A DNA stretch of 31,181 nucleotides from Chloroflexia bacterium (GTDB lineage: Bacteria; Chloroflexota; Chloroflexia; Thermomicrobiales; JALYUS01). A model generated the notes under the pieces. That model worked only from the letters and a program-made list of their open reading frames with translations, was not told where the DNA came from and did no database searches. Numbering within the stretch: the first letter of the stretch is position 1; each line of letters begins with the position of its first letter. Made by a program: the position numbers and the translations under genes. The stretch spans positions 1 through 31,181 of the forward strand of contig JAICIL010000008.1 of NCBI GenBank assembly GCA_025924435.1. Direction: 5' to 3'. Shown here in pieces: positions 1,593-31,181 of this stretch.

Positions 1593-3788
1593 ATGGATGC
1601 CGATTCGATACTGCTCCATCTCATCATTGACCTCGTCATCATCATCATCGCGGCGCGCTCGCTCGGGTGGGCGGCGAAGAAACTCAATCAGCCCGCCGTG
1701 ATCGGCGAGATCATCGCCGGCATCCTCCTCGGCCCGACCGTGATCGGGCGGATCTGGCCGAGCGTGCCGGGGCGGCTTTTCCCGGCGGAGGTGCCGCTCG
1801 CCTTCTTCGCGGACATCGGCCTCATCTTCTTCATGTTCCTCGTCGGCCTCGAACTCAATCCCGATTTGATGCGCCGGGAGGGCAGGCGGGCGCTGCAAAT
1901 CTCCCTCAGCGGCATCTTCTCCCCCTTCCTGCTCGGCATCCTGCTCGCCACGCGGATGACCGGCGTGAACAATGGCGGCCACTTCGCCGATCCGACCAAA
2001 GGGCACCCGCCCACGCTCACCTTCGCGCTTTTCATCGGCGCTTCGATGTGCATCACGGCCTTTCCTGTGCTCGCGCGCATGCTCGTGGAGACCGGGCTGT
2101 ACAAGCAATCCTTCGGCACCGCCGCCCTCTGCGCCGCCGCCGTGGACGACGCGATTGCCTGGATTCTCCTCGCGAGCGTCGTCGGGCTGACGCGCAACGG
2201 CTCGGCCCGCAGCGCGATCCCGGTCTTCCTCCTCGCCGCCGTCTTCGTCCTCTTCATGTTCCTCGTCGGCACGCGACTCCTGAGTCTCCTGGCGAAGCGA
2301 TACGACGCGGTCGGCCATCTCACGGTGGATATGGTGGCGATTGTCCTCGCCGGTGTCCTCCTCTCCGCGTTCATCACCCAGCGGATCGGCATCCACTCGA
2401 TCTTCGGCGCCTTCCTCTTCGGGGCGATCATGCCGAAGCGCTCCGGCATGACGCGCGAACTGACCGACAAGGTCGAGGACTTCACCGTGATCGTCCTCCT
2501 GCCGATCTTCTTCGCCGTCACCGGCCTGCGCACCAACCTCTTCTCGCTCAACAGCCCGTCGCTGATCGGCTGGCTCGTGGCGATTGTGCTCGTCGCGACG
2601 ATCGGCAAATTCGCGGGTTGCGGCATCGCCGCCCGGCTCACCGGCTCCACGAAGCGCGATGCGGTCATCCTCGGCGCGCTGATGAACACGCGCGGCCTCA
2701 CCGAACTGGTGATCCTCTCCATCGGCCTCGGCCTCAACGTCCTCTCCGACCGGACCTTCGCGATGATGGTCATCATGGCCCTCGTCACGACGGTCATGGC
2801 CGCGCCGATCGTCAACCGCCTCGTCTCGCGGGACGAGCAGATCCGCGACCTCGTCGGCGAAGCGCCCGATGTGGCGATCGTCCCGGCGGCGCGCGTCCTC
2901 GTGGCAATCGGCAACCCGCTCAACGCGCCCTCGCTTGTGGATGCGGCGATCCGCCTCACCGGCGGCAAGCGGCCCGCCGAACTGCTCCTCATCCGCCTGA
3001 TCCCGACGCCGCGCGCGCCGGAATTCCGCACCGGCTTACTGGAAGCGGAGAGCCAGGTGGAGGCGGCGATCGAGTCCATGCGCCCGCTCGTGGCGCAGGC
3101 GGCGGCGGCGGGCGTCGTCGCGCGGCCCATCTCCTTCCTCTCCGACGATGTCAGCCCGGACCTCGCCCGCGTCGCGCGGGACCAGCATTGCGACACGATG
3201 CTGCTCGGCTGGCACCGCGCCTCGCTGCCGAAGCACGTCATCCAGGCGCTCGTCCATCGCGTCTTCACCCTCGCCTCGTGCGATGTCACCGTCTTCGTGG
3301 ACCCGGCGGGCGCCGGCATCCGCCCGGAGACGGATCGCCCGGTCGTCATCATCCTCGGCGGGCGGGCGCAGGACGAGGGGGCGATCCGCCTCGGCATGCG
3401 GCTGGCGGAGGATATGCGCACGAGTGTCAAACTGGTCGGCTATACGGGCGATCGGCACGAGCGCGCGCTGACCGTCGCCTCCGAGGAACTGGCGGAGCGC
3501 GCGGACGCCCTCCGCCAGCAGAGCGGCCGCTGGGTCGTGCCGGTCTTCGTCGGCGGCGATTCTCTGAGCAGCGCGGGCGGCGAGACGGCGGAAGGCGCGG
3601 TCGCGGTCGTGCCGGTCGGGGACGACTGGTTCACCGAGGAGGACTTCGGCCACCCCGCCGCCGAACTGGCCGAACTGACCGCCTGCCCGATGTTCGTCGT
3701 GCGCGGCGTGGACGCGATGAGCGGCGCGGCGAACGGCAAGCGCCGCATGGGCCGGGCGGCCCGCGAGACGGTGCCCGCCGGGCGGTGA
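1593..3788 (+). CDS. Cation/proton antiporter (CPA2/Kef family) with universal-stress-like C-terminal region
   Basis: This is a 731-residue inner-membrane exchanger expected to swap Na+ or K+ for protons. Residues 1 to about 400 hold roughly twelve hydrophobic segments with family signatures: GEIIAGILLGPTVIG near residue 37, the ion-binding Asp pair D185-D186 in AAVDDAIAW, and MNTRGLTELVIL near residue 365. Residues from about 430 to 710 form a soluble region that looks like two universal-stress-protein-like domains (for example the VVIILGG strand near 586), as in plant CHX and related bacterial exchangers. ATG 1593 follows GGAGGGG with normal spacing. The gene is divergent from the decayed paralogue at 1-1013, which suggests duplication and loss. 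Cation specificity cannot be assigned. Confidence 0.88.
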   Translation: MDADSILLHLIIDLVIIIIAARSLGWAAKKLNQPAVIGEIIAGILLGPTVIGRIWPSVPGRLFPAEVPLAFFADIGLIFFMFLVGLELNPDLMRREGRRALQISLSGIFSPFLLGILLATRMTGVNNGGHFADPTKGHPPTLTFALFIGASMCITAFPVLARMLVETGLYKQSFGTAALCAAAVDDAIAWILLASVVGLTRNGSARSAIPVFLLAAVFVLFMFLVGTRLLSLLAKRYDAVGHLTVDMVAIVLAGVLLSAFITQRIGIHSIFGAFLFGAIMPKRSGMTRELTDKVEDFTVIVLLPIFFAVTGLRTNLFSLNSPSLIGWLVAIVLVATIGKFAGCGIAARLTGSTKRDAVILGALMNTRGLTELVILSIGLGLNVLSDRTFAMMVIMALVTTVMAAPIVNRLVSRDEQIRDLVGEAPDVAIVPAARVLVAIGNPLNAPSLVDAAIRLTGGKRPAELLLIRLIPTPRAPEFRTGLLEAESQVEAAIESMRPLVAQAAAAGVVARPISFLSDDVSPDLARVARDQHCDTMLLGWHRASLPKHVIQALVHRVFTLASCDVTVFVDPAGAGIRPETDRPVVIILGGRAQDEGAIRLGMRLAEDMRTSVKLVGYTGDRHERALTVASEELAERADALRQQSGRWVVPVFVGGDSLSSAGGETAEGAVAVVPVGDDWFTEEDFGHPAAELAELTACPMFVVRGVDAMSGAANGKRRMGRAARETVPAGR

Positions 3789-3797
3789 GTTTTCACA

Positions 3798-3908
3798 ACC
3801 CCCTGCCCCATCCCTCGGAGGGAAGGGGTGACTCGCCGCGATATCGTAGGGCTTGGGCGAACGCCTCAAACATCCGGAATGATTCCCCTCCCTCGGAGGG
3901 AGGGGGCT
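3798..3908. repeat. Paired CCCTCCCTCGGAGGGAGGG palindromes between convergent genes
   Basis: Two hairpins at about 3803-3828 and 3885-3906 share the core CCCTCGGAGGG and sit about 55 bases apart. They fill the gap between the antiporter stop and the cyclase-gene stop, which the second palindrome reaches. The paired arrangement, with C-rich outer left and G-rich outer right ends, matches the element at 30725-30853. They could act as terminators for both convergent genes. Confidence 0.6.
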
Positions 3909-6900
3909 AAGGGATAGGGAAATTTCCGTCCGGCACGCCGGGCGGGGCGGGGCGGGGCGGTGGCGCGGGCATGGTCGGCGCGTCGGCGGGCGCGGTCGCT
4001 AGTGCGAAGACGCGGGCGAGTGGCAAGGCGCGGCCCTCGGCCCAGGCGACTTCCCAGACATTCCCCGCGACGCCGTGCCGGGCGGCGGCAAGATCGCGCT
4101 CATAGCGCGCCTGCTCGTCCGGCACGCGGGGGGCGCGATGCTCGTCGCGCAGCGTCTCGATCGCGCCCCAGAGCCGGGCGGCGCGCACCCCATCGCCCTC
4201 CGCGCCGACGAGCGCCGCCAGACCTTCCAGCGACTCGATGACGCCGCGCGCGTCATCCAATTGCCGGCTCACGGCGAGGCTTTCCCGATACGCGGCGCGG
4301 GCGGCGGCGACATCGCCCTGCCGCCGGGCGGCGAAGGCCACATTGTTGAGTGAGAAGGGCAGGGCGCGCGGGTCGCCCAGTTCGCGCCGGATGGCGAGCG
4401 CTTCGTCGTAGTGCGCGCGGGCGGCCGCGTCATCGCCCTGTTGCCCCGCGATCATCCCGAGGTTCGTCAGCGAGAAGGCGATGGCGCGCATGTCGCCCAG
4501 TTCGCGCCGCAGGGCGAGGCTTTGTTCGGAGAAGGCGCGGGCGGCGGCGACATCGCCCTGCCGCCTCGCGACCGCGCCGAGATTATTCAGGGCGAAGCCG
4601 ACGGTCGCGGTGTCGCCCGTCGCGCGCCCGGCCGTCAGACCCTCCTCGTAATGGATACGAGCAGCGGCGAAATCGCCCCGCTGCTGCGCGACGGCGCCGA
4701 GGTTCAGCAGGGCGTGGGCGACCGCCTGCTGATGCCCCTCCGCCCGCCCGATGGCCAGACCCTCCGCGTAGCGGTCGTGGGCGGTAACATCGTCGCCCTG
4801 CCGCTGCGCGAGGATGCCGAGGTTAATGAGCGTGCGCGCCACAGCCTCCGTGTCGCCCATCGCCCGCCGGATCGCGAGGCATTCTTCGTAGAGCGTCCGC
4901 GCGGCCTCGAAATCGCCCTCGTCGCGCGCCATACCGGCGAGGTTGCTGAGCGAGTGCGCGATGCCCGCCTGGTGCCCCAGGCCGCGCCGGATTGCGAGGC
5001 TTTCTTCGTATCGCTCCCGCGCCGCCGCGTGCTCCCCCTGCGCCCGCATCAGCGCGCCGAGGCCGTCCAGCGCTTTCGCCCGCACCAACGGCGGCACGCC
5101 CTCCGCGCGTTCCAGCGCGCGCTCCATCCAGCGGCGCCCCTCCGTCAGGTAGCCGCGGACGGACCAGAAGCGCCAGAATGCCGCGACGAGGCGCGCCGCC
5201 GCCGCGTACTCGCCCGCTTCGAGGGCGTTGCGGATCGAGACGCGGACGTTGTCGTGCTCCTCTTCGAGGCGGGCGAGCCACACACCCTGCGCCGCCCCGG
5301 CGAGGTGCGGTTCCGCCTCCTCCGCGAGCGCGAGATAATACATCGTGCGGGCGTGGCGCATCGCCGCCAATTCGCCGCGCGCCTCCAACCGCTCCAACGC
5401 ATACTCGCGGATCGTGCCGAGCATCGCGAAGCGCGGCTCGCCCTCCCGCCCCTCGACATGCCGGAGCAGGCTCTTGTCCGCGAGCGACGACAACCCGTCG
5501 ATGATCGCCGTCGTCGGGTCGCGCGGCGCGCCGCAGATCGCCTCGATCGCCGTCAGCGTGCCGCCCCCCGCGAAGACGGCCATGCGCGCGAACAACGTCT
5601 GCTCGTCCGTGTCGAGCGTCGTGTAACTCCAATCAATCGCGCCGCGCAGCGTCCGTTGCCGCTTGGGCAGATCGCGCGCCCCGCCAGTGAGCACCTGCAG
5701 GGTGTGCGAGAGCCGCTCAAGGAGCGCCTGCGGCGTGAGCAGTTTGATCCGCGCGGCGGCGAGTTCGATGGCGAGCGGCAGGCCGTCCAGCCGGTGGCAA
5801 ATCTCCACGATGGCCTTCGCGTTCGCCGGGGTGAGCGCGAAATCCGCCTTCACCTCTTGCGCCCGCGCGACGAAGAGGCGCACCGATTCGTACTGCATCG
5901 CCCGCTCGACCGTCGCCCGCCGGTCGGGCAGTGGCAGCGGCGGCACCGGGTACTCCCGCTCGCCGTAGACACGGAGCGCGGCCCGGCTCGTGGCGAGCGC
6001 CTTCAATCCCGGCGCGGCGGCGAGCAACCGGCCGATCGCCGGCCCCGCGTCGGCGACCTGCTCGAAGTTGTCCAACACGAGCAGCAGCCGCTGCTCGCGG
6101 AGTGCGGCGGGCAGGCGGGCGGCGAGCGGCTGCCCGCCCTCCTCGGTGACGCCGAGCGTCTCCGCGATCTGCGACAGCACCCGCGCGGGATCGACGACAT
6201 CGGCGAGCGGGACGAAGAAGACGCCGTCCGGGAAGAAGTCCAGGCATTCCGCCGCCGCCTGCACGCCGAGGCGCGTCTTCCCCGTGCCGCCCGGCCCTGT
6301 CAGCGTCGCGAGGCGCACGTCGTCCCGCTGCAGCAGCGCGACGACCTCCATCGCCTCGCGCTCCCGCCCGACGAGCATGTTCGCCTGGGCGGGCAGGTTC
6401 GTGCGCCGGGCGTCGAGCGTCTTGAGGGGCGGGAAATCGGCCGGCAGGTCGGGCGCGACCACCTGGAAGATGTGCTCCGGGCGCAGCAAGTCTTTCAGCC
6501 GCGCCGCGCCCATGTCCCTGAGGGCGACACCGGGCGGCAGACCGTCGCGGATCAGTTCCTCCGTCGCGCCGGAGACGAGCGTCTGCCCGCCGTGCCCGGC
6601 GGAGAGGAGCCGCGCCACGCGATTGAGCGGTCGCCCGAAGTAATCGCCGTTCTGGGCCTCGACAGAGCCGGTGTGCAGGGCCATCCGCACGCGCAACGGG
6701 TCGCCGCCGCCCCACTCCGCGGCGAAGAGCGCGCGCTGGGCGGCGAGCGCGGCATCGAGCGCGGCGGGCGCGTTCGTGAAGGCGGCGTAGAAGGCGTCGC
6801 CGACTGTCTTGAAGACCACGCCGCCGCAGTCGTCAATCGCCGTGCCGAGGAGCGCATCGTGCCGGGAGAGGATGGCGCGCATCGCCTCGGCGTCGTGCTC

Positions 6901-6969
6901 CCAACGCTGCGTGCTCCCGGCGATGTCCGTGAAGAGGAACGTCACCGTCCCGCTGGGAAGATCCCGCAT
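3907..6969 (-). CDS. Class III adenylate/guanylate cyclase - NB-ARC ATPase - TPR regulator
   Basis: This is a 1,020-residue, probably cytosolic signalling protein. An N-terminal class III cyclase domain (about 1-190) carries metal-binding D15 in FLFTDIAGST and K54/D58 in FKTVGDAF; LNRVARL supplies the Asn/Arg pair expected for catalysis. An AfsR/NB-ARC-type ATPase follows, with Walker A GPGGTGKT at 225-232 and Walker B LLLVLDNF around D300. The C-terminal third is tetratricopeptide repeats of 40 residues. I chose ATG 6969 rather than the upstream ATG at 7005, because AAGGA lies 7 nt before it, family members begin at this point, and the only good -10 element (7008-7013) leaves no room for the longer start. 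No LuxR-type HTH is visible, so output may be through the cyclase or a TPR partner. Confidence 0.85.
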   Translation of the reverse strand: MRDLPSGTVTFLFTDIAGSTQRWEHDAEAMRAILSRHDALLGTAIDDCGGVVFKTVGDAFYAAFTNAPAALDAALAAQRALFAAEWGGGDPLRVRMALHTGSVEAQNGDYFGRPLNRVARLLSAGHGGQTLVSGATEELIRDGLPPGVALRDMGAARLKDLLRPEHIFQVVAPDLPADFPPLKTLDARRTNLPAQANMLVGREREAMEVVALLQRDDVRLATLTGPGGTGKTRLGVQAAAECLDFFPDGVFFVPLADVVDPARVLSQIAETLGVTEEGGQPLAARLPAALREQRLLLVLDNFEQVADAGPAIGRLLAAAPGLKALATSRAALRVYGEREYPVPPLPLPDRRATVERAMQYESVRLFVARAQEVKADFALTPANAKAIVEICHRLDGLPLAIELAAARIKLLTPQALLERLSHTLQVLTGGARDLPKRQRTLRGAIDWSYTTLDTDEQTLFARMAVFAGGGTLTAIEAICGAPRDPTTAIIDGLSSLADKSLLRHVEGREGEPRFAMLGTIREYALERLEARGELAAMRHARTMYYLALAEEAEPHLAGAAQGVWLARLEEEHDNVRVSIRNALEAGEYAAAARLVAAFWRFWSVRGYLTEGRRWMERALERAEGVPPLVRAKALDGLGALMRAQGEHAAARERYEESLAIRRGLGHQAGIAHSLSNLAGMARDEGDFEAARTLYEECLAIRRAMGDTEAVARTLINLGILAQRQGDDVTAHDRYAEGLAIGRAEGHQQAVAHALLNLGAVAQQRGDFAAARIHYEEGLTAGRATGDTATVGFALNNLGAVARRQGDVAAARAFSEQSLALRRELGDMRAIAFSLTNLGMIAGQQGDDAAARAHYDEALAIRRELGDPRALPFSLNNVAFAARRQGDVAAARAAYRESLAVSRQLDDARGVIESLEGLAALVGAEGDGVRAARLWGAIETLRDEHRAPRVPDEQARYERDLAAARHGVAGNVWEVAWAEGRALPLARVFALATAPADAPTMPAPPPRPAPPGVPDGNFPIP
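4201..5040 (-). repeat. Seven tandem 120-bp units encoding TPRs
   Basis: Inside the cyclase-fusion gene, units of exactly 120 bp end at 4320, 4440, 4560, 4680, 4800, 4920 and 5040, marked by a CATCGCCCTG-like tail. Each encodes one 40-residue helix pair of kinesin-light-chain TPR type. Nucleotide similarity between neighbouring units suggests recent amplification or gene conversion. Confidence 0.85.
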
Positions 6970-7007
6970 TCGCCCATCCTTCGCATGCGTGCCCGTCTGC
7001 CCCATTC

Positions 7008-26043: not shown

Positions 26044-26232
26044 GGTGCATCCCGCCCCGGCGCGCACCGGATGCGCGTGGCCGGTCTTACCAACCCGATC
26101 TGTACAGGGAGCGGGCGCCTCATCGGAGGCGCGCAGGGGGAAGTCCGGTTCGAGTCCGGCGCTGTCCCGCAACGGTATCCGACGCTTCGCCGTCGTCAGC
26201 CCGACCACCCGCCGCTCCCCGGATTCGTCACC
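26044..26232 (+). promoter_or_regulatory. Cobalamin riboswitch (AdoCbl type)
   Basis: The region has the conserved cobalamin riboswitch core: GGGGGAAGTCCGGT (about 26136-26149), GCTGTCCCGCAAC (26161-26173), and the B12-box-like GTCAGCCCGACCACCCGCC (26195-26213). The closing stem P1 can be drawn between GGTGCATCC (26044-26052) and GGATTCGTCACC (26221-26232). It should bind adenosylcobalamin in the leader RNA and shut down the genes that follow. Only 8 nt after P1 stands GAAAGGAG, so control of translation is plausible. The first recognisable gene starts more than 200 nt later, with repeats in between. Confidence 0.93.
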
Positions 26233-26445: not shown

Positions 26446-27366
26446 ATGCGCACACGAATCGGGACGCTGCTGGCACTGCTGCTCGTCGCGCTCATGGTGG
26501 TGGCGAACGCGCCCGTCGCGGCGGCGGCGACGCCGGAGGCGGAGAACGCGCTGGCTTACCTGCGCGCGCAACAGAATACGGACGGCGGCTACCCCGGTCT
26601 CTCCGGCCCGGCGAGCGACCCGAGCGTCAGCGCGGACGCGGCGCTCGCCTTCGTCTCGTCGGGCGTTGCGCTCGGCGATGTGAAGAAGGGCGACAGCAGC
26701 CTGCTCGATTATCTCCATGCGAGCGCAAACGGCCTGAAGAGCGGCCCGGCGGCGAAGTTCCTGCTCGTCGCGGCGAATATCGGCGAGGACCCGGCCTCCT
26801 TCGGCGGCGCGAACCTCCTCACCCTGAGCGCCGCCGACAAGAGCGCGGACGGCATCTACGGCGGCTCGTACTTCATCCATGCCCTCGTCATCCTCGCGCA
26901 TGCCATCGCGGAATCTCCGGACGCGGCGAAGGCGCTCGATAACGGCGTCCTGCTCCGGGCGCAGCAGGTGGACGGCGGCTGGGGTTTCGACGCGAAGGGG
27001 GCGAGCGACACGAACACGACCGCGCTCGTCGTGCAGGCGCTCGTCGCCAGCGGGCAGGGCGGCGACGCGACGACGCGCGGCATGGCGTACATGGAGGGCA
27101 CGCTGCAACCGAGCAACCTCTATCCGTTCGACGCCAAGAGCGGCGACGGCGACGCGAACAGCACCGCCTACGTCCTGCAGGCGAAGATCGCCGCCCGCGC
27201 GAATCCGGATGAGATTACGCGGACGCGCGCCGCGCTCGTCGCCCTCCAGAATCCGAGCGGCGCGTTCCCCTTCCAGAAGGCCGCGCCGGACGACAATCTC
27301 CTCGCCACCATCCAGGCCATCCCCGCCATCAATGGCCGCGCCTTCCCCGCAATCGGACAGGGATGA
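26446..27366 (+). CDS. Secreted alpha/alpha-toroid protein, intrinsic-factor alpha-domain-like
   Basis: This 306-residue protein starts with a signal peptide (residues 1 to about 28, MRTRIGTLLALLLVALM... ending in AAA). The mature part is repeated helix pairs of the prenyltransferase/terpene-cyclase alpha/alpha-toroid type, seen in QQNTDGGYPGL and QQVDGGWGFDAKG followed by TNTTALVVQAL. Catalytic motifs of terpene cyclases (DXDD) are absent, so a binding role is more likely. The N-terminal domain of intrinsic factor and transcobalamin has this same alpha6/alpha6 fold. The cobalamin riboswitch upstream and the DUF4430 gene downstream support corrinoid capture. ATG 26446 follows GGGTGAGG 5 nt upstream, provided by a repeat; a GTG at 26428 would add six residues. 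Cobalamin binding is inference. Confidence 0.75.
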   Translation: MRTRIGTLLALLLVALMVVANAPVAAAATPEAENALAYLRAQQNTDGGYPGLSGPASDPSVSADAALAFVSSGVALGDVKKGDSSLLDYLHASANGLKSGPAAKFLLVAANIGEDPASFGGANLLTLSAADKSADGIYGGSYFIHALVILAHAIAESPDAAKALDNGVLLRAQQVDGGWGFDAKGASDTNTTALVVQALVASGQGGDATTRGMAYMEGTLQPSNLYPFDAKSGDGDANSTAYVLQAKIAARANPDEITRTRAALVALQNPSGAFPFQKAAPDDNLLATIQAIPAINGRAFPAIGQG

Positions 27367-27377
27367 GGACGAAACGA

Positions 27378-27518
27378 AGGAATGAGGACTGGGTATCCCT
27401 ACAGGAACTGAGGACTGAGCAGGGGAGGCGGCATGGCTCCGATGAAGACTGCAAGAGAGCACGCGCGGATAAGGACCTCAGTCCTCAGTTCCTGTAGGGA
27501 TACCCAGTCCTCATTCCT
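27378..27518. repeat. Perfect 42-bp inverted repeat around the DUF4430 start codon
   Basis: Bases 27378-27419 are the exact complement of 27477-27518, with a 57-nt loop. The arms include GGGTATCCCTACAGGAACTG and GGACTGAG units. The loop contains the ribosome site GGGGAGG (27422-27428) and both possible ATG codons (27433, 27442) of the DUF4430 gene, and the right arm is coding. Confidence 0.95.
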
Positions 27519-28320
27519 CATTTTCGATTGGAGCGGCCTGAAGGTCCTGCTCGCCGCGCTGCTCGTCCTCGTTGCACTGACCGGGGGCACGGGGACGGCG
27601 CAACCGGCGCGGGCGGCGGGGGCGGTCGGGATCGTCGTGCGACACGGCGACGGGCGCATCCTCTATGCCTATCTCCCGCTGGCGGGCGACCGGATGACGG
27701 GCGCGGAGGCGCTGCAAAAGTCGGGGCTGACGCTCAATGTCACGGCCGGTGGCGCGTACGGCACGGCGGTCTGCGCGATTGACGGCGAGGGGTGCGAGTC
27801 GCCGAAGGAGGACTGCTTCTGCAAATCCTACGGCAGCCCGTCATTCTACTGGCATTACTACCTGCGCGGCCCGGACGGCGCGTGGCGCAACGCCACCCTC
27901 GGCGCGGGGAGCCGCGTCCTCCGCGACGGCGATGTGGACGGTTGGTCGTGGACGAGCGGCGACAGCGACCTGCCGACCGTGACACCGGCGCAGATCGCGG
28001 CGGCGGTGCAATCCGCGAGCACGACGCCCACGCCACGCGCCGCTCCATCCGTGGCAGCGACCGAGCCGAGCGCGGCGACGCCGGTTGCCTCGCGCGCGAC
28101 CGCCACGGCGGGGGATCGGCCCCGCGTCGCCGCCATCGGGCCGAACGGGAGCACGACGCCGATCGTCGCGGCGGCGAAGTCTTCCGGCGCGGCGAAGGGC
28201 GGGGCCATCGGTTGGTTCGTCGCGGTCGCGGCGCTGATGCTCGCGCTGCTCGCACTCGCCCCACTCGGCGCGCGGCGGGCACGGCGACGGCGCGACACCA
28301 ATCCGTCGCGGGAACCGTGA
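27433..28320 (+). CDS. Membrane-anchored DUF4430 protein, transcobalamin C-terminal-domain-like
   Basis: This is a 295-residue surface protein. Residues 15-29 are translated from a palindrome arm. A signal-peptide-like helix spans about 36-58 (LKVLLAALLVLVALTGG). The DUF4430 domain covers about 60-180: MTGAEALQKSGL, the Cys-rich DGEGCESPKEDCFC, YWHYYLRGPDG and VLRDGDVDGWSW match the family pattern. A Thr/Ala/Pro-rich stalk, a C-terminal membrane helix (about 256-280) and an Arg-rich cytosolic tail follow. DUF4430 is the fold of the C-terminal half of transcobalamin and intrinsic factor, so this protein plausibly closes over a corrinoid held by its upstream partner. No in-frame ATG, GTG or TTG exists between 27445 and the end of the signal helix, so translation must start in the hairpin loop. 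Confidence 0.78.
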   Translation: MAPMKTAREHARIRTSVLSSCRDTQSSFLIFDWSGLKVLLAALLVLVALTGGTGTAQPARAAGAVGIVVRHGDGRILYAYLPLAGDRMTGAEALQKSGLTLNVTAGGAYGTAVCAIDGEGCESPKEDCFCKSYGSPSFYWHYYLRGPDGAWRNATLGAGSRVLRDGDVDGWSWTSGDSDLPTVTPAQIAAAVQSASTTPTPRAAPSVAATEPSAATPVASRATATAGDRPRVAAIGPNGSTTPIVAAAKSSGAAKGGAIGWFVAVAALMLALLALAPLGARRARRRRDTNPSREP

Positions 28321-28342
28321 CGGGGTGATGAAAGGACCGGCG

Positions 28343-29749
28343 ATGAGCGCGCGAATCGTCCTCGCGGGGAGCGCATCGAATGTCGGCAAGACGACGCTCG
28401 CCACCGGGATGATCGCCGCGTTCCGCCGTCGCGGGCTGGCGGTCCAGCCGTTCAAGGTCGGGCCGGACTACATTGACCCGCCCTACCACACCCACGCCGC
28501 CGGGCTGCCGAGCCGCAACCTCGATTCGTGGCTCGTCCCGCACGACCGGCTGCGCGCCTGCTTCGCGCACGCGGCCCGAAACGCGGACGTGGCGGTGATC
28601 GAAGGGATGATGGGCCTCTACGACGGCCAGGAGTATCGGGGCGAGGCGGGCAGCACGGCGGAGGTGGCGAAACTGCTCGATGCGCCGGTGGTCGTCATCC
28701 TCGATGTGTCGGCGCAGGCCCGGAGCGCCGCCGCGACCGCGCTCGGTTTCATGCGCCTGGACCCGGCGTTGCGCGTCGCGGGCTTCATCTGCAACCGCAC
28801 CGGCGGGCCGGGGCATGGTCGCGGCGTGAAGGAGTCGATTGAGGACGCGACCGGGCTGCCGGTGTTCGGCGGCGTGCCGCAGACCGATGCGGTCGCGATC
28901 CCGGAGCGCCATCTCGGCCTCACGCCGACCGGCGAGCGGGGCGACCTAGGGCCGCTCATCGGCGCGCTCGCCGACCTGATCGCCGAGCATTGCGACCTTG
29001 ATGCATTGCTTGCCCTCGCGCGGAGCGCTCCACCGCTCGCCGCCACGGCGGAGGATCCATCGGTCTTTGCGGAAATCGGAGCCGCCGATACGGAGGGCGA
29101 ACGCCCGGTGATCGCGGTCGCGCGGGATCGGGCGTTTTCGTTCTATTACGAGGACAACCTCGACCTCCTGCGCCTCGCCGGGGCGGCGATTGTGCCATTC
29201 AGCCCGCTCGAAGACGCGCGCCTGCCGGACGGCGCGGCGGGACTATACATCGGCGGCGGCTTCCCGGAGATGTACGCCGCCGAACTCGCGGCGAATGGCG
29301 CGCTCCGCCGGGAAATTCGCGACGCTGTGGCCACCGGGATGCCCTGCTACGCGGAGTGCGGGGGATTGATGTACCTGACCGAGTCGCTCACCGACGGCGC
29401 GGGCGAGCGGCATCCGATGGTCGGTCTCGTGCCGGGGCGCGCGGCGATGGGCGGGCGGTGGCCCCACATCGGGTACACGACCGTCCGCGCCCTCCGGGAT
29501 ACGCCGCTCCTGCGCGCGGGCGAGCAGGCACGCGGCCACGAATTCCATCACTCCACCTGGGAAGGCGTCCCGCCGGACATTCCGCACGCATTCATCGCAC
29601 AGGACGCCCGCGGCGGCACGCCGGCGGGGTATGCGCGCGGCAATCTCCTCGCCTCCTATATCCATCTCCATTTCTGGGGCATGCCCGCGCTCGCCGCGCG
29701 CTTTGTCGCGCGGTGCGGGGCATACGCCGAGAAGCGAGCGCCGCGATGA
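28343..29749 (+). CDS. cbiA: Cobyrinate a,c-diamide synthase (CbiA/CobB)
   Basis: This 468-residue glutamine-dependent enzyme amidates the a and c side chains of cobyrinate (or hydrogenobyrinate) using ATP. The N-terminal P-loop domain carries SASNVGKTTLATG (K16) and KVGPDYIDPPYH, and EGMMGLYDG near residue 85. The C-terminal class I glutaminase domain has IGGGFPEMYAAEL, nucleophile C339 in CYAECGGLMYL, and RGHEFHHSTWE near 395. ATG 28343 follows GAAAGGA with 6 nt spacing, 22 bases after the DUF4430 stop; GTG 28325 and ATG 28328 lack a ribosome site. It overlaps the ECF gene by ATGA. No other corrin-ring genes are nearby, so it may complete imported precursors or simply share B12 control. Confidence 0.92.
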   Translation: MSARIVLAGSASNVGKTTLATGMIAAFRRRGLAVQPFKVGPDYIDPPYHTHAAGLPSRNLDSWLVPHDRLRACFAHAARNADVAVIEGMMGLYDGQEYRGEAGSTAEVAKLLDAPVVVILDVSAQARSAAATALGFMRLDPALRVAGFICNRTGGPGHGRGVKESIEDATGLPVFGGVPQTDAVAIPERHLGLTPTGERGDLGPLIGALADLIAEHCDLDALLALARSAPPLAATAEDPSVFAEIGAADTEGERPVIAVARDRAFSFYYEDNLDLLRLAGAAIVPFSPLEDARLPDGAAGLYIGGGFPEMYAAELAANGALRREIRDAVATGMPCYAECGGLMYLTESLTDGAGERHPMVGLVPGRAAMGGRWPHIGYTTVRALRDTPLLRAGEQARGHEFHHSTWEGVPPDIPHAFIAQDARGGTPAGYARGNLLASYIHLHFWGMPALAARFVARCGAYAEKRAPR

Positions 29750-31181
29750 CGCCCGATCGGCACGGTGCCACGCCCGACGGGGATCAACGCGCGGACCAAT
29801 CCGGTGGCGCCGCGCCCATCGCCTCAACACTCCATCCCCTCGCGTGGCTCGCCTGGGCGGTCGCGTGCACGCTGGTGGTGGCGACGACGCGCGATCCGCT
29901 CTACCTGCTGCTCGTGACGCTCTGCGCCGGGGCCGCGTACCGCGCCGCGCGCGGCGCGCGACCGGAAACGGGCGCGCGCTGGTCGCTCGTCCTGCGCGCG
30001 GCATGGACACTCGCGACCATCTCGATCCTTTTCAACACGCTGACCGTCCACGCCGGAGACCGCGCGCTCTTCGCGCTGCCGCGCGCCCTGCCGCTCGTCG
30101 GGGCGGTGATCGGCGGGGCGGTGACGCTCAACGCGCTGCTCTACGGCCTCGTCGCCGCGCTCGCCCTCGGCACGCTCATCCTCGTCTTCGCGGCGCTCAA
30201 CGCCGCAGTCGGCTACGAGGAATTGCTCCGCCTCCTGCCCCGTCCGCTCACCGGCCTCGGCGTGACGATGACGGTCGCCCTCGGCTTCCTGCCCCAAACC
30301 ATCGCAGCGCTCGGCGAGGTGCGGGAGGCGCAGGCGGTGCGCGGCCACACGCCCCGACGCGGGCTGCGCGGGGGTCTTTTGGACAGCATGCCGCCGCTCG
30401 TCGTGCCGGTGCTCGCGCTCGGCCTCGAACGGGCGATCGCGCTCGCCGAGGCGATGGCGGCGCGCGGCTTCGGCGTCCCACAAACCGGGAGCGTCCGCAT
30501 CCGGCGCACGTCCTATCGTGCCCAGCCGTGGCGGATGCCCGGCAGCATCGTGACCGCCGGTGCGGCCATCACCGCCGTCGCGGTCGCGGCGGTCGCTCTC
30601 GGTGGAAGTGCGCTCGTCTATTACCCGTACCCAATCCTGCTTTGGCCGCCTTTTACCCCCCTGATTGGCCTCGCGCTGCTGCCTCTGCTGCTGCCCGCGC
30701 TGGTGGTGCCGTACGCGGGGATCGGCCCACCCCCGGCCCCTCCCGCGTCGGGAGGGGAGAGGGGCAGGCTGGCTCATCCGGCTGCTCCGCTGAATGCCAG
30801 GATGCGCGACGCCGGTTCCCTCTCCCGACGCGGGAGGGAATCAGGGGGTGGGCACGTCGCCCGCCTCGATCGCGTCACGTATGCCTATCCCCACGTGGCG
30901 GCATTGACGCTCGATACCGTCTCCTGGGATATGTGTGAACACGGCCCGACACTCCTGCTCGGCCCGTCGGGTGCGGGGAAATCCACGCTGCTCCGCACCT
31001 TCAACGGCCTCGTGCCGCACTTCACCGGCGGGCGGTTCGGCGGCGCGGCGACCGTAGCCGGGCGTGCGGCGCACCGCGACGGGCCGCGCGGGATGAGCGG
31101 GGTCGTCGGCATGCTCTTCCAGGACCCGGAAGCGGCCGCCGTCGCGCCGCGCGTCGCGGACGACGTCGCCTTCGCGCTCGA
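29746..31181 (+). CDS. Fused ECF transporter: EcfT transmembrane subunit plus EcfA ATPase, 3' end outside window
   Basis: One frame of 478 codons runs from ATG 29746 (overlapping the cbiA stop) to the window edge without a stop. Residues about 30-325 are an EcfT/CbiQ-like membrane protein, with both coupling motifs: EVREAQAVRGH (near 190-200) and EAMAARGFG (near 232-240). Residues from about 371 on are an ECF ABC ATPase: RLDRVTYAYP, Walker A GPSGAGKS at 406-413 and Q-loop Gln459 in LFQDPEA. Signature and Walker B lie outside the window. The 43 residues between them (about 327-369) come from a palindromic repeat. A separate ATPase start at ATG 30802 is possible, but it has no ribosome site. 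It should energise vitamin uptake; the S component is not in view. Corrinoid is the inferred cargo. Confidence 0.85.
   Translation, partial: MTPDRHGATPDGDQRADQSGGAAPIASTLHPLAWLAWAVACTLVVATTRDPLYLLLVTLCAGAAYRAARGARPETGARWSLVLRAAWTLATISILFNTLTVHAGDRALFALPRALPLVGAVIGGAVTLNALLYGLVAALALGTLILVFAALNAAVGYEELLRLLPRPLTGLGVTMTVALGFLPQTIAALGEVREAQAVRGHTPRRGLRGGLLDSMPPLVVPVLALGLERAIALAEAMAARGFGVPQTGSVRIRRTSYRAQPWRMPGSIVTAGAAITAVAVAAVALGGSALVYYPYPILLWPPFTPLIGLALLPLLLPALVVPYAGIGPPPAPPASGGERGRLAHPAAPLNARMRDAGSLSRRGRESGGGHVARLDRVTYAYPHVAALTLDTVSWDMCEHGPTLLLGPSGAGKSTLLRTFNGLVPHFTGGRFGGAATVAGRAAHRDGPRGMSGVVGMLFQDPEAAAVAPRVADDVAFAL
30725..30853 (+). repeat. Composite palindromic element forming the EcfT-EcfA linker
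   Basis: Terminal inverted repeats GCCCACCCCC (30725-30734) and GGGGGTGGGC (30844-30853) enclose two hairpins: CCCCTCCCG-CGT-CGGGAGGGG at 30737-30757, and one at about 30817-30839 with core CTCCCGACGCGGGAG. The length of 129 bp equals 43 codons, and all are sense codons in the EcfT-EcfA frame. It has the same layout as the paired palindromes at 3798-3908. Confidence 0.8.

Follow-up and report, generated by a model that had tools for sequence, protein, structure and literature searches.

Animal transcobalamin (TC), intrinsic factor (IF) and haptocorrin are built from an α/α toroid followed by a TC-type β-grasp domain. A stretch of 31,181 nucleotides from contig JAICIL010000008.1 of a Chloroflexia bacterium, analyzed here as a whole (the window), contains two adjacent genes whose products are predicted to adopt these two fold types in the same order but, unlike the animal carriers, as two polypeptides, one of them anchored, beside genes of an energy-coupling factor (ECF) importer. 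This locus raises the question of whether the pair constitutes a split counterpart of the animal vitamin B12 carriers. A preliminary description of the DNA had proposed a two-piece extracellular corrinoid receptor feeding the importer, a proposal that is supported by the predicted folds, the operon context, the recurrence of a cobalamin riboswitch across many Chloroflexota and the presence of corrinoid-salvage genes near some copies. The window probably encodes a riboswitch-controlled corrinoid uptake operon, in which the toroid protein and the anchored β-grasp protein would jointly bind a corrinoid and deliver it to the S component of the ECF importer.

Predicted folds of the two proteins

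Both open reading frames (ORFs) of the preliminary description were recovered with its coordinates (Table 1), and the riboswitch that it had placed before them scores above the gathering threshold on the same strand, about 215 nt ahead of the toroid ATG. By reading of its sequence, the first product has a signal-peptide-like start; it matches SQHop_cyclase_N in Pfam (E 6e-9) and SCO2321 in NCBIfam (E 1e-16, 60.7 bits against a curated cut-off of 300), and its closest relative among the matches listed is 97% identical. The toroid region of the two-domain model described below was predicted with pLDDT mostly 96-98, in agreement with the secreted α/α toroid claimed earlier, and IF/TC and squalene cyclases share its top VIA rows with tied Z values (rows within one Z unit were counted as tied). 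By sequence, the PDB relatives of the toroid are squalene cyclases, and no TC or IF chain was present among the 46 matches of the toroid profile to PDB sequences at E<=1.

The second product reads, from N- to C-terminus, as a hydrophobic signal-like stretch, a conserved core, a Pro/Thr/Ala-rich linker, a hydrophobic segment and basic residues, and it matches SCO2322 in NCBIfam (E 0.0014, 19 bits against a curated cut-off of 85). Modelled alone with AlphaFold2 (AF2), its β-domain reached pLDDT 91.1 and pTM 0.84, and the first 15 of 50 VIA rows were TC, IF and haptocorrin entries plus the bacterial structure 3u7z, far ahead of the others listed. The model thus assigns to this protein a predicted β-grasp domain of the TC type, which the accessible text of PMC1949818 distinguishes by strands inserted before strand 3. 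The entry 3u7z is a putative metal-binding protein of Ruminococcus gnavus, a 96-residue chain without a toroid, and no paper with its locus name was found in the literature searched. A search of PDB sequences with the β-grasp profile found nothing related.

The sequence similarity to PF01122 (the animal cobalamin-binding family) and PF14478 (DUF4430) that the preliminary description had anticipated did not materialize: unlike members of the TC/IF family, the window proteins have no Pfam match to either at E<=1, nor do they unite both domains in one chain. Among relatives, PF01122 was matched by 10 of 57 aligned toroids at E<=0.01, and PF14478 by one of 79 cores (E 0.001) and in none of 12 genomes. 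Of the membrane-anchored DUF4430 protein described earlier, the signal-like and anchor segments agree with the reading of the sequence and the fold is predicted to be of the TC type; DUF4430 as a label for the window's second protein is rejected by sequence. Relatives of the two proteins match SCO2321 and SCO2322, whose genes we take to be neighbours in Streptomyces, down to E 3e-30 and 8e-7, with all scores, as for the window proteins, far below the curated cut-offs. PF28005.1 is a precomputed label on one β-grasp relative (P0059) and some others, and Pfam scans of such proteins returned no family.

The arrangement of the two domains was addressed with a joint model, a single chain obtained by translating across the stop codons that separate the two genes, for which only loci with both genes in the same frame were usable. 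Among VIA rows spanning both domains of this chain IF was the best, with a rough placement of the two. AlphaFold was trained on solved structures, probably including TC and IF, a caveat on the fold match.

Conservation of the locus and its variants

Gene order and riboswitch were examined in 80 fetched loci, the best 80 of 126 relatives, all Chloroflexota by title except L013 (Gemmatimonadales) and three titled only as bacteria (L002, L009, L041). The toroid is present in 69 of them. Of the 56 loci scanned, 47 have a same-strand cobalamin riboswitch upstream (more than 1 kb away in L040 and L055), which belongs to RF00174 except in L038, L047 and L025 (RF01482); the other nine scanned loci (L064, L007, L075, L002, L005, L080, L004, L009, L006) had no such upstream element. 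A total of 112 core matches was obtained, 79 of which are in alignment A2. A joint alignment (A4) was dropped because toroid tails aligned into the β-grasp region, and was replaced by A5 (87 rows).

A less selected sample of 201 Chloroflexota genomes was searched for the β-grasp core, the toroid and the riboswitch. The core is encoded in 50 genomes (the carriers), of which 37 have a same-strand toroid at most 4 kb upstream, 44 a riboswitch at most 6 kb upstream (five of them below the gathering score) and 34 both. The toroid of G055 sits close to one end of a different contig, and that of G208 about 5 kb away. Since the toroid accompanies the core in 37 of 50 carriers and the riboswitch in 44, the association of gene order and riboswitch exceeds chance.

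Eleven of the 50 carriers encode the β-grasp protein with no toroid at E<=1e-10, indicating that the toroid can be dispensable. These genomes bear on the alternative that the corrinoid is received by the β-grasp subunit unaided, with the toroid as an independent surface protein (for example a scaffold, or a binder of another compound) that takes no part in holding the ligand. The riboswitch lies 199-231 nt upstream of the β-grasp core in 10 of the 11, and EcfT and EcfA adjoin the β-grasp gene in at least four of six fetched toroid-less loci (L081-L084). Another (L086) has an S-component candidate (DUF6580, with PF12822 just below cut-off), CobS and CobU beside its β-grasp gene, CobS and CobU are encoded on the other strand in L085, and both toroid-less proteins inspected (L081 and L082) present, by reading, a lipobox-like Cys. 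All but the last two of these favour a receptor made of the β-grasp subunit alone. Against that alternative stand the toroid kept directly upstream in 37 of 50 carriers, the existence of two-domain fusions and a joint model that puts both domains roughly as in TC/IF, and we regard it as unlikely.

The fusions occur in both orders. The core is fused ahead of the toroid in 11 ORFs, and likewise in P0218, whereas P0214 has the TC domain order in one 685-aa chain with 57% and 54% identity to the proteins of the window pair. This form is represented by one sequence, which retains an internal signal-like stretch and may therefore have arisen by loss of a stop codon or by a sequencing error. Tandem β-grasp proteins, typically a shorter one followed by a longer one, were also observed (L028, L033, L035, L036, L044, L048, L059, L060 and others). 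The β-grasp protein is what the importer is consistently paired with; the toroid seems to have been added, and may raise affinity or close the site. The side-by-side occurrence of lone β-grasp proteins, split pairs and single-chain fusions may retrace the origin of the two-domain design of animal B12 carriers.

A loose LPxTG-like pattern is found in the tail of 15 of 70 toroid frames, one of which (L080) is unlike an anchor. In several toroid ORFs of Thermomicrobia-labelled loci (L002-L010), the C-terminus has repeats containing FGYPLTEE-like motifs, which, judging from the sequence, may form a wall-binding module.

Importer, ligand and proposed mechanism

Of the 52 loci whose downstream sequence extends for 3 kb or more, 47 encode EcfT; in L024 it lies on the other strand. 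In the locus of the window's nearest genome (L001), EcfT and two ECF ATPase stretches form one 921-aa ORF (1872-4637), followed by an S component. A profile started from seven seeds, with L001 left out, recovered this S-component family in 39 of the 80 loci, L001 included, and 31 of these 39 are among the 52 loci with sufficient downstream sequence. Compared with Pfam, three of six S candidates match PF12822 (L034, L020, L055) and three match nothing (L044, L063, L001). The window itself has EcfT in one frame with an ABC ATPase (EcfA), as far as the frame is visible, the EcfT being weak by Pfam. The cbiA and ECF genes that had been reported downstream are both present, but cbiA is not conserved: the window's CbiA, used as query, had no match in any of the 80 fetched loci, ruling it out as a conserved operon member.

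We also considered import of cobalt ions or of another vitamin, with extracellular proteins that bind a different compound, for instance an isoprenoid in the manner of squalene cyclases. Squalene-hopene cyclase models are the nearest to the toroid by sequence, Pfam lists CbiQ as a cobalt transport family, and two toroid-less S candidates have an additional match, below cut-off, to a riboflavin S family, while one is best matched by DUF6580. Set against this are the cobalamin riboswitch in most loci scanned, S candidates of four loci above the PF12822 cut-off, the TC-type fold predicted for the β-grasp domain and the corrinoid genes near some copies, which together make such a function very improbable.

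A closer contender is that the main substrate of receptor and importer is not cobalamin but a cobinamide-type precursor or a different cobamide. This reading partly coincides with the corrinoid uptake favoured here, which does not specify the corrinoid. It is suggested by cbiA in the window, by CobU, CobS, CobO or CbiB relatives near some copies and by ECF-CbrT, which takes both cobalamin and cobinamide according to the accessible text of PMC5997447; yet these relatives were found in only 11 of 86 loci, cbiA only in the window, and several corrinoids could be accepted by one receptor. We consider it a serious possibility, albeit somewhat improbable.

For the corrinoid uptake operon as proposed, scarcity of cobalamin would allow the riboswitch to permit expression. 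The toroid protein would then be secreted, and the β-grasp protein held at the outer face of the membrane by its C-terminal anchor. The two would associate much like the two TC domains, with the corrinoid held between them, and the anchored subunit would hand it to the S component of the downstream-encoded ECF importer. More tentatively, and with somewhat less than even confidence, we suggest that Chloroflexota possess a two-subunit extracellular receptor, which clamps the vitamin between separately encoded proteins and passes it to an ECF importer. ECF importers are usually described as capturing their substrate with the membrane S component alone.

Besides the toroid-less genomes, several observations weigh against the proposed corrinoid uptake operon. 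The joint model is a single read-through chain with pTM 0.70, judged without predicted aligned error; squalene-hopene cyclase is Foldseek's first rank for it; the TC entries 2v3n, 8ixt, 2bb5 and 2bb6 stand below some cyclases in VIA; and the toroid sequence is nearer to cyclases than to TC. The structural check put IF at the head of the VIA rows that cover both domains but placed the two only roughly, because the VIA rmsd goes from approximately 3 (toroid alone) to 4.0-4.3 (both domains) and the Foldseek superpositions on TC/IF are poor (rmsd 12-15 over 509-532 columns). The EcfT-EcfA frame reaches the window end, the S component is not within view in the window, and the profile search did not find the S-component family in the Thermomicrobia-labelled loci L003-L008 and L010. 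Finally, a lack of corrin-ring synthesis does not set carriers apart: across the 201 genomes, of unstated completeness, the corrin-ring enzyme CbiC is encoded in 27, with 8 of 50 carriers versus 19 of 151 others, and the notion that carriers are depleted in this synthesis was consequently dropped.

B12-binding domains were found in all 51 genomes comprising the 50 carriers and that of L001, and CbiC in eight of these 51.

Known systems and layout of the window

The general idea of B12 scavenging by bacterial SLBB/toroid proteins is already known. In its accessible text, Burroughs et al. 2007 (PMC1796856) defined the SLBB superfamily, described bacterial SLBB-toroid fusions in either order, sometimes with a second extracellular SLBB protein and in operons with CbiO/CbiQ, and predicted both B12 scavenging by these proteins and their transfer to animals. 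The window locus resembles that clade in its secreted SLBB protein beside a toroid (signal segment by reading) and its CbiO/CbiQ-type operon, with fused forms among relatives. In that text, members of the clade come from low-GC Gram-positives, planctomycetes and some euryarchaea; the string 'chloroflex' is absent from the main text of the paper. As described there, it differs from the present family, which belongs to Chloroflexota, has diverged beyond PF14478, and features two genes, a riboswitch and toroid-less versions. What is new here is a split pair diverged beyond Pfam, associated with a riboswitch, widespread in Chloroflexota and accompanied by toroid-less and fused relatives.

Riboswitch-regulated B12 transport in Chloroflexi was mentioned by Sun et al. 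2013 (PMC3766115), whose accessible text does not name these proteins. ECF-CbrT, as presented in the accessible text of PMC5997447, likewise combines EcfT, EcfA (with EcfA') and a corrinoid S component; there the S component binds the substrate, whereas the present locus further encodes an extracellular pair of proteins. A literature search that left subscription journals largely outside listed no experimental work on such bacterial pairs among its matches.

If the proposal is correct, ECF importers can have dedicated extracellular receptors, the two halves of the IF/TC design occur as separable proteins open to assay singly or in combination, hypothetical proteins in 50 of 201 sampled Chloroflexota genomes gain a function, and the 2007 prediction on how bacteria scavenge B12 and how the animal B12 carriers originated becomes testable by simple binding assays.

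Table 1. Features of the toroid/β-grasp locus, with positions in the window.
Feature	Positions	Strand	Evidence
Cobalamin riboswitch aptamer (RF00174)	26095..26230	+	48.5 bits vs gathering score 31.5, full model 1-189
Toroid gene	26446..27366	+	ATG to stop, 306 aa; SQHop_cyclase/SCO2321-like, signal-peptide-like N-terminus
Inverted repeat between toroid and β-grasp genes	27370..27526	.	50-nt arms, 94% complementary, 57 nt apart
Gene of anchored second protein	27433..28320	+	ATG to stop, 295 aa
Predicted β-grasp (SLBB, transcobalamin-type) core of second protein	27604..27978	+	Four conserved Cys; AF2 model, VIA rows, conserved columns
cbiA (cobyrinic acid a,c-diamide synthase)	28325..29749	+	NF002204 522.7 bits, cut-off 254; PF07685 and PF01656
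EcfT-EcfA in single reading frame	29746..31181, reaching window end	+	CbiQ PF02361 E 2e-4 (below cut-off), ABC_tran E 8e-7

The inverted repeat covers the start codon of the β-grasp gene, and therefore either the true start of this gene or the presence of a regulatory hairpin is uncertain. On its sequence matches, the window's CbiA is certain in its identity, and its stop codon is overlapped by the ATG of the EcfT-EcfA frame. Elsewhere in the window, positions 3907-7005 on the minus strand encode a 1032-aa protein matching guanylate cyclase, NB-ARC and TPR.
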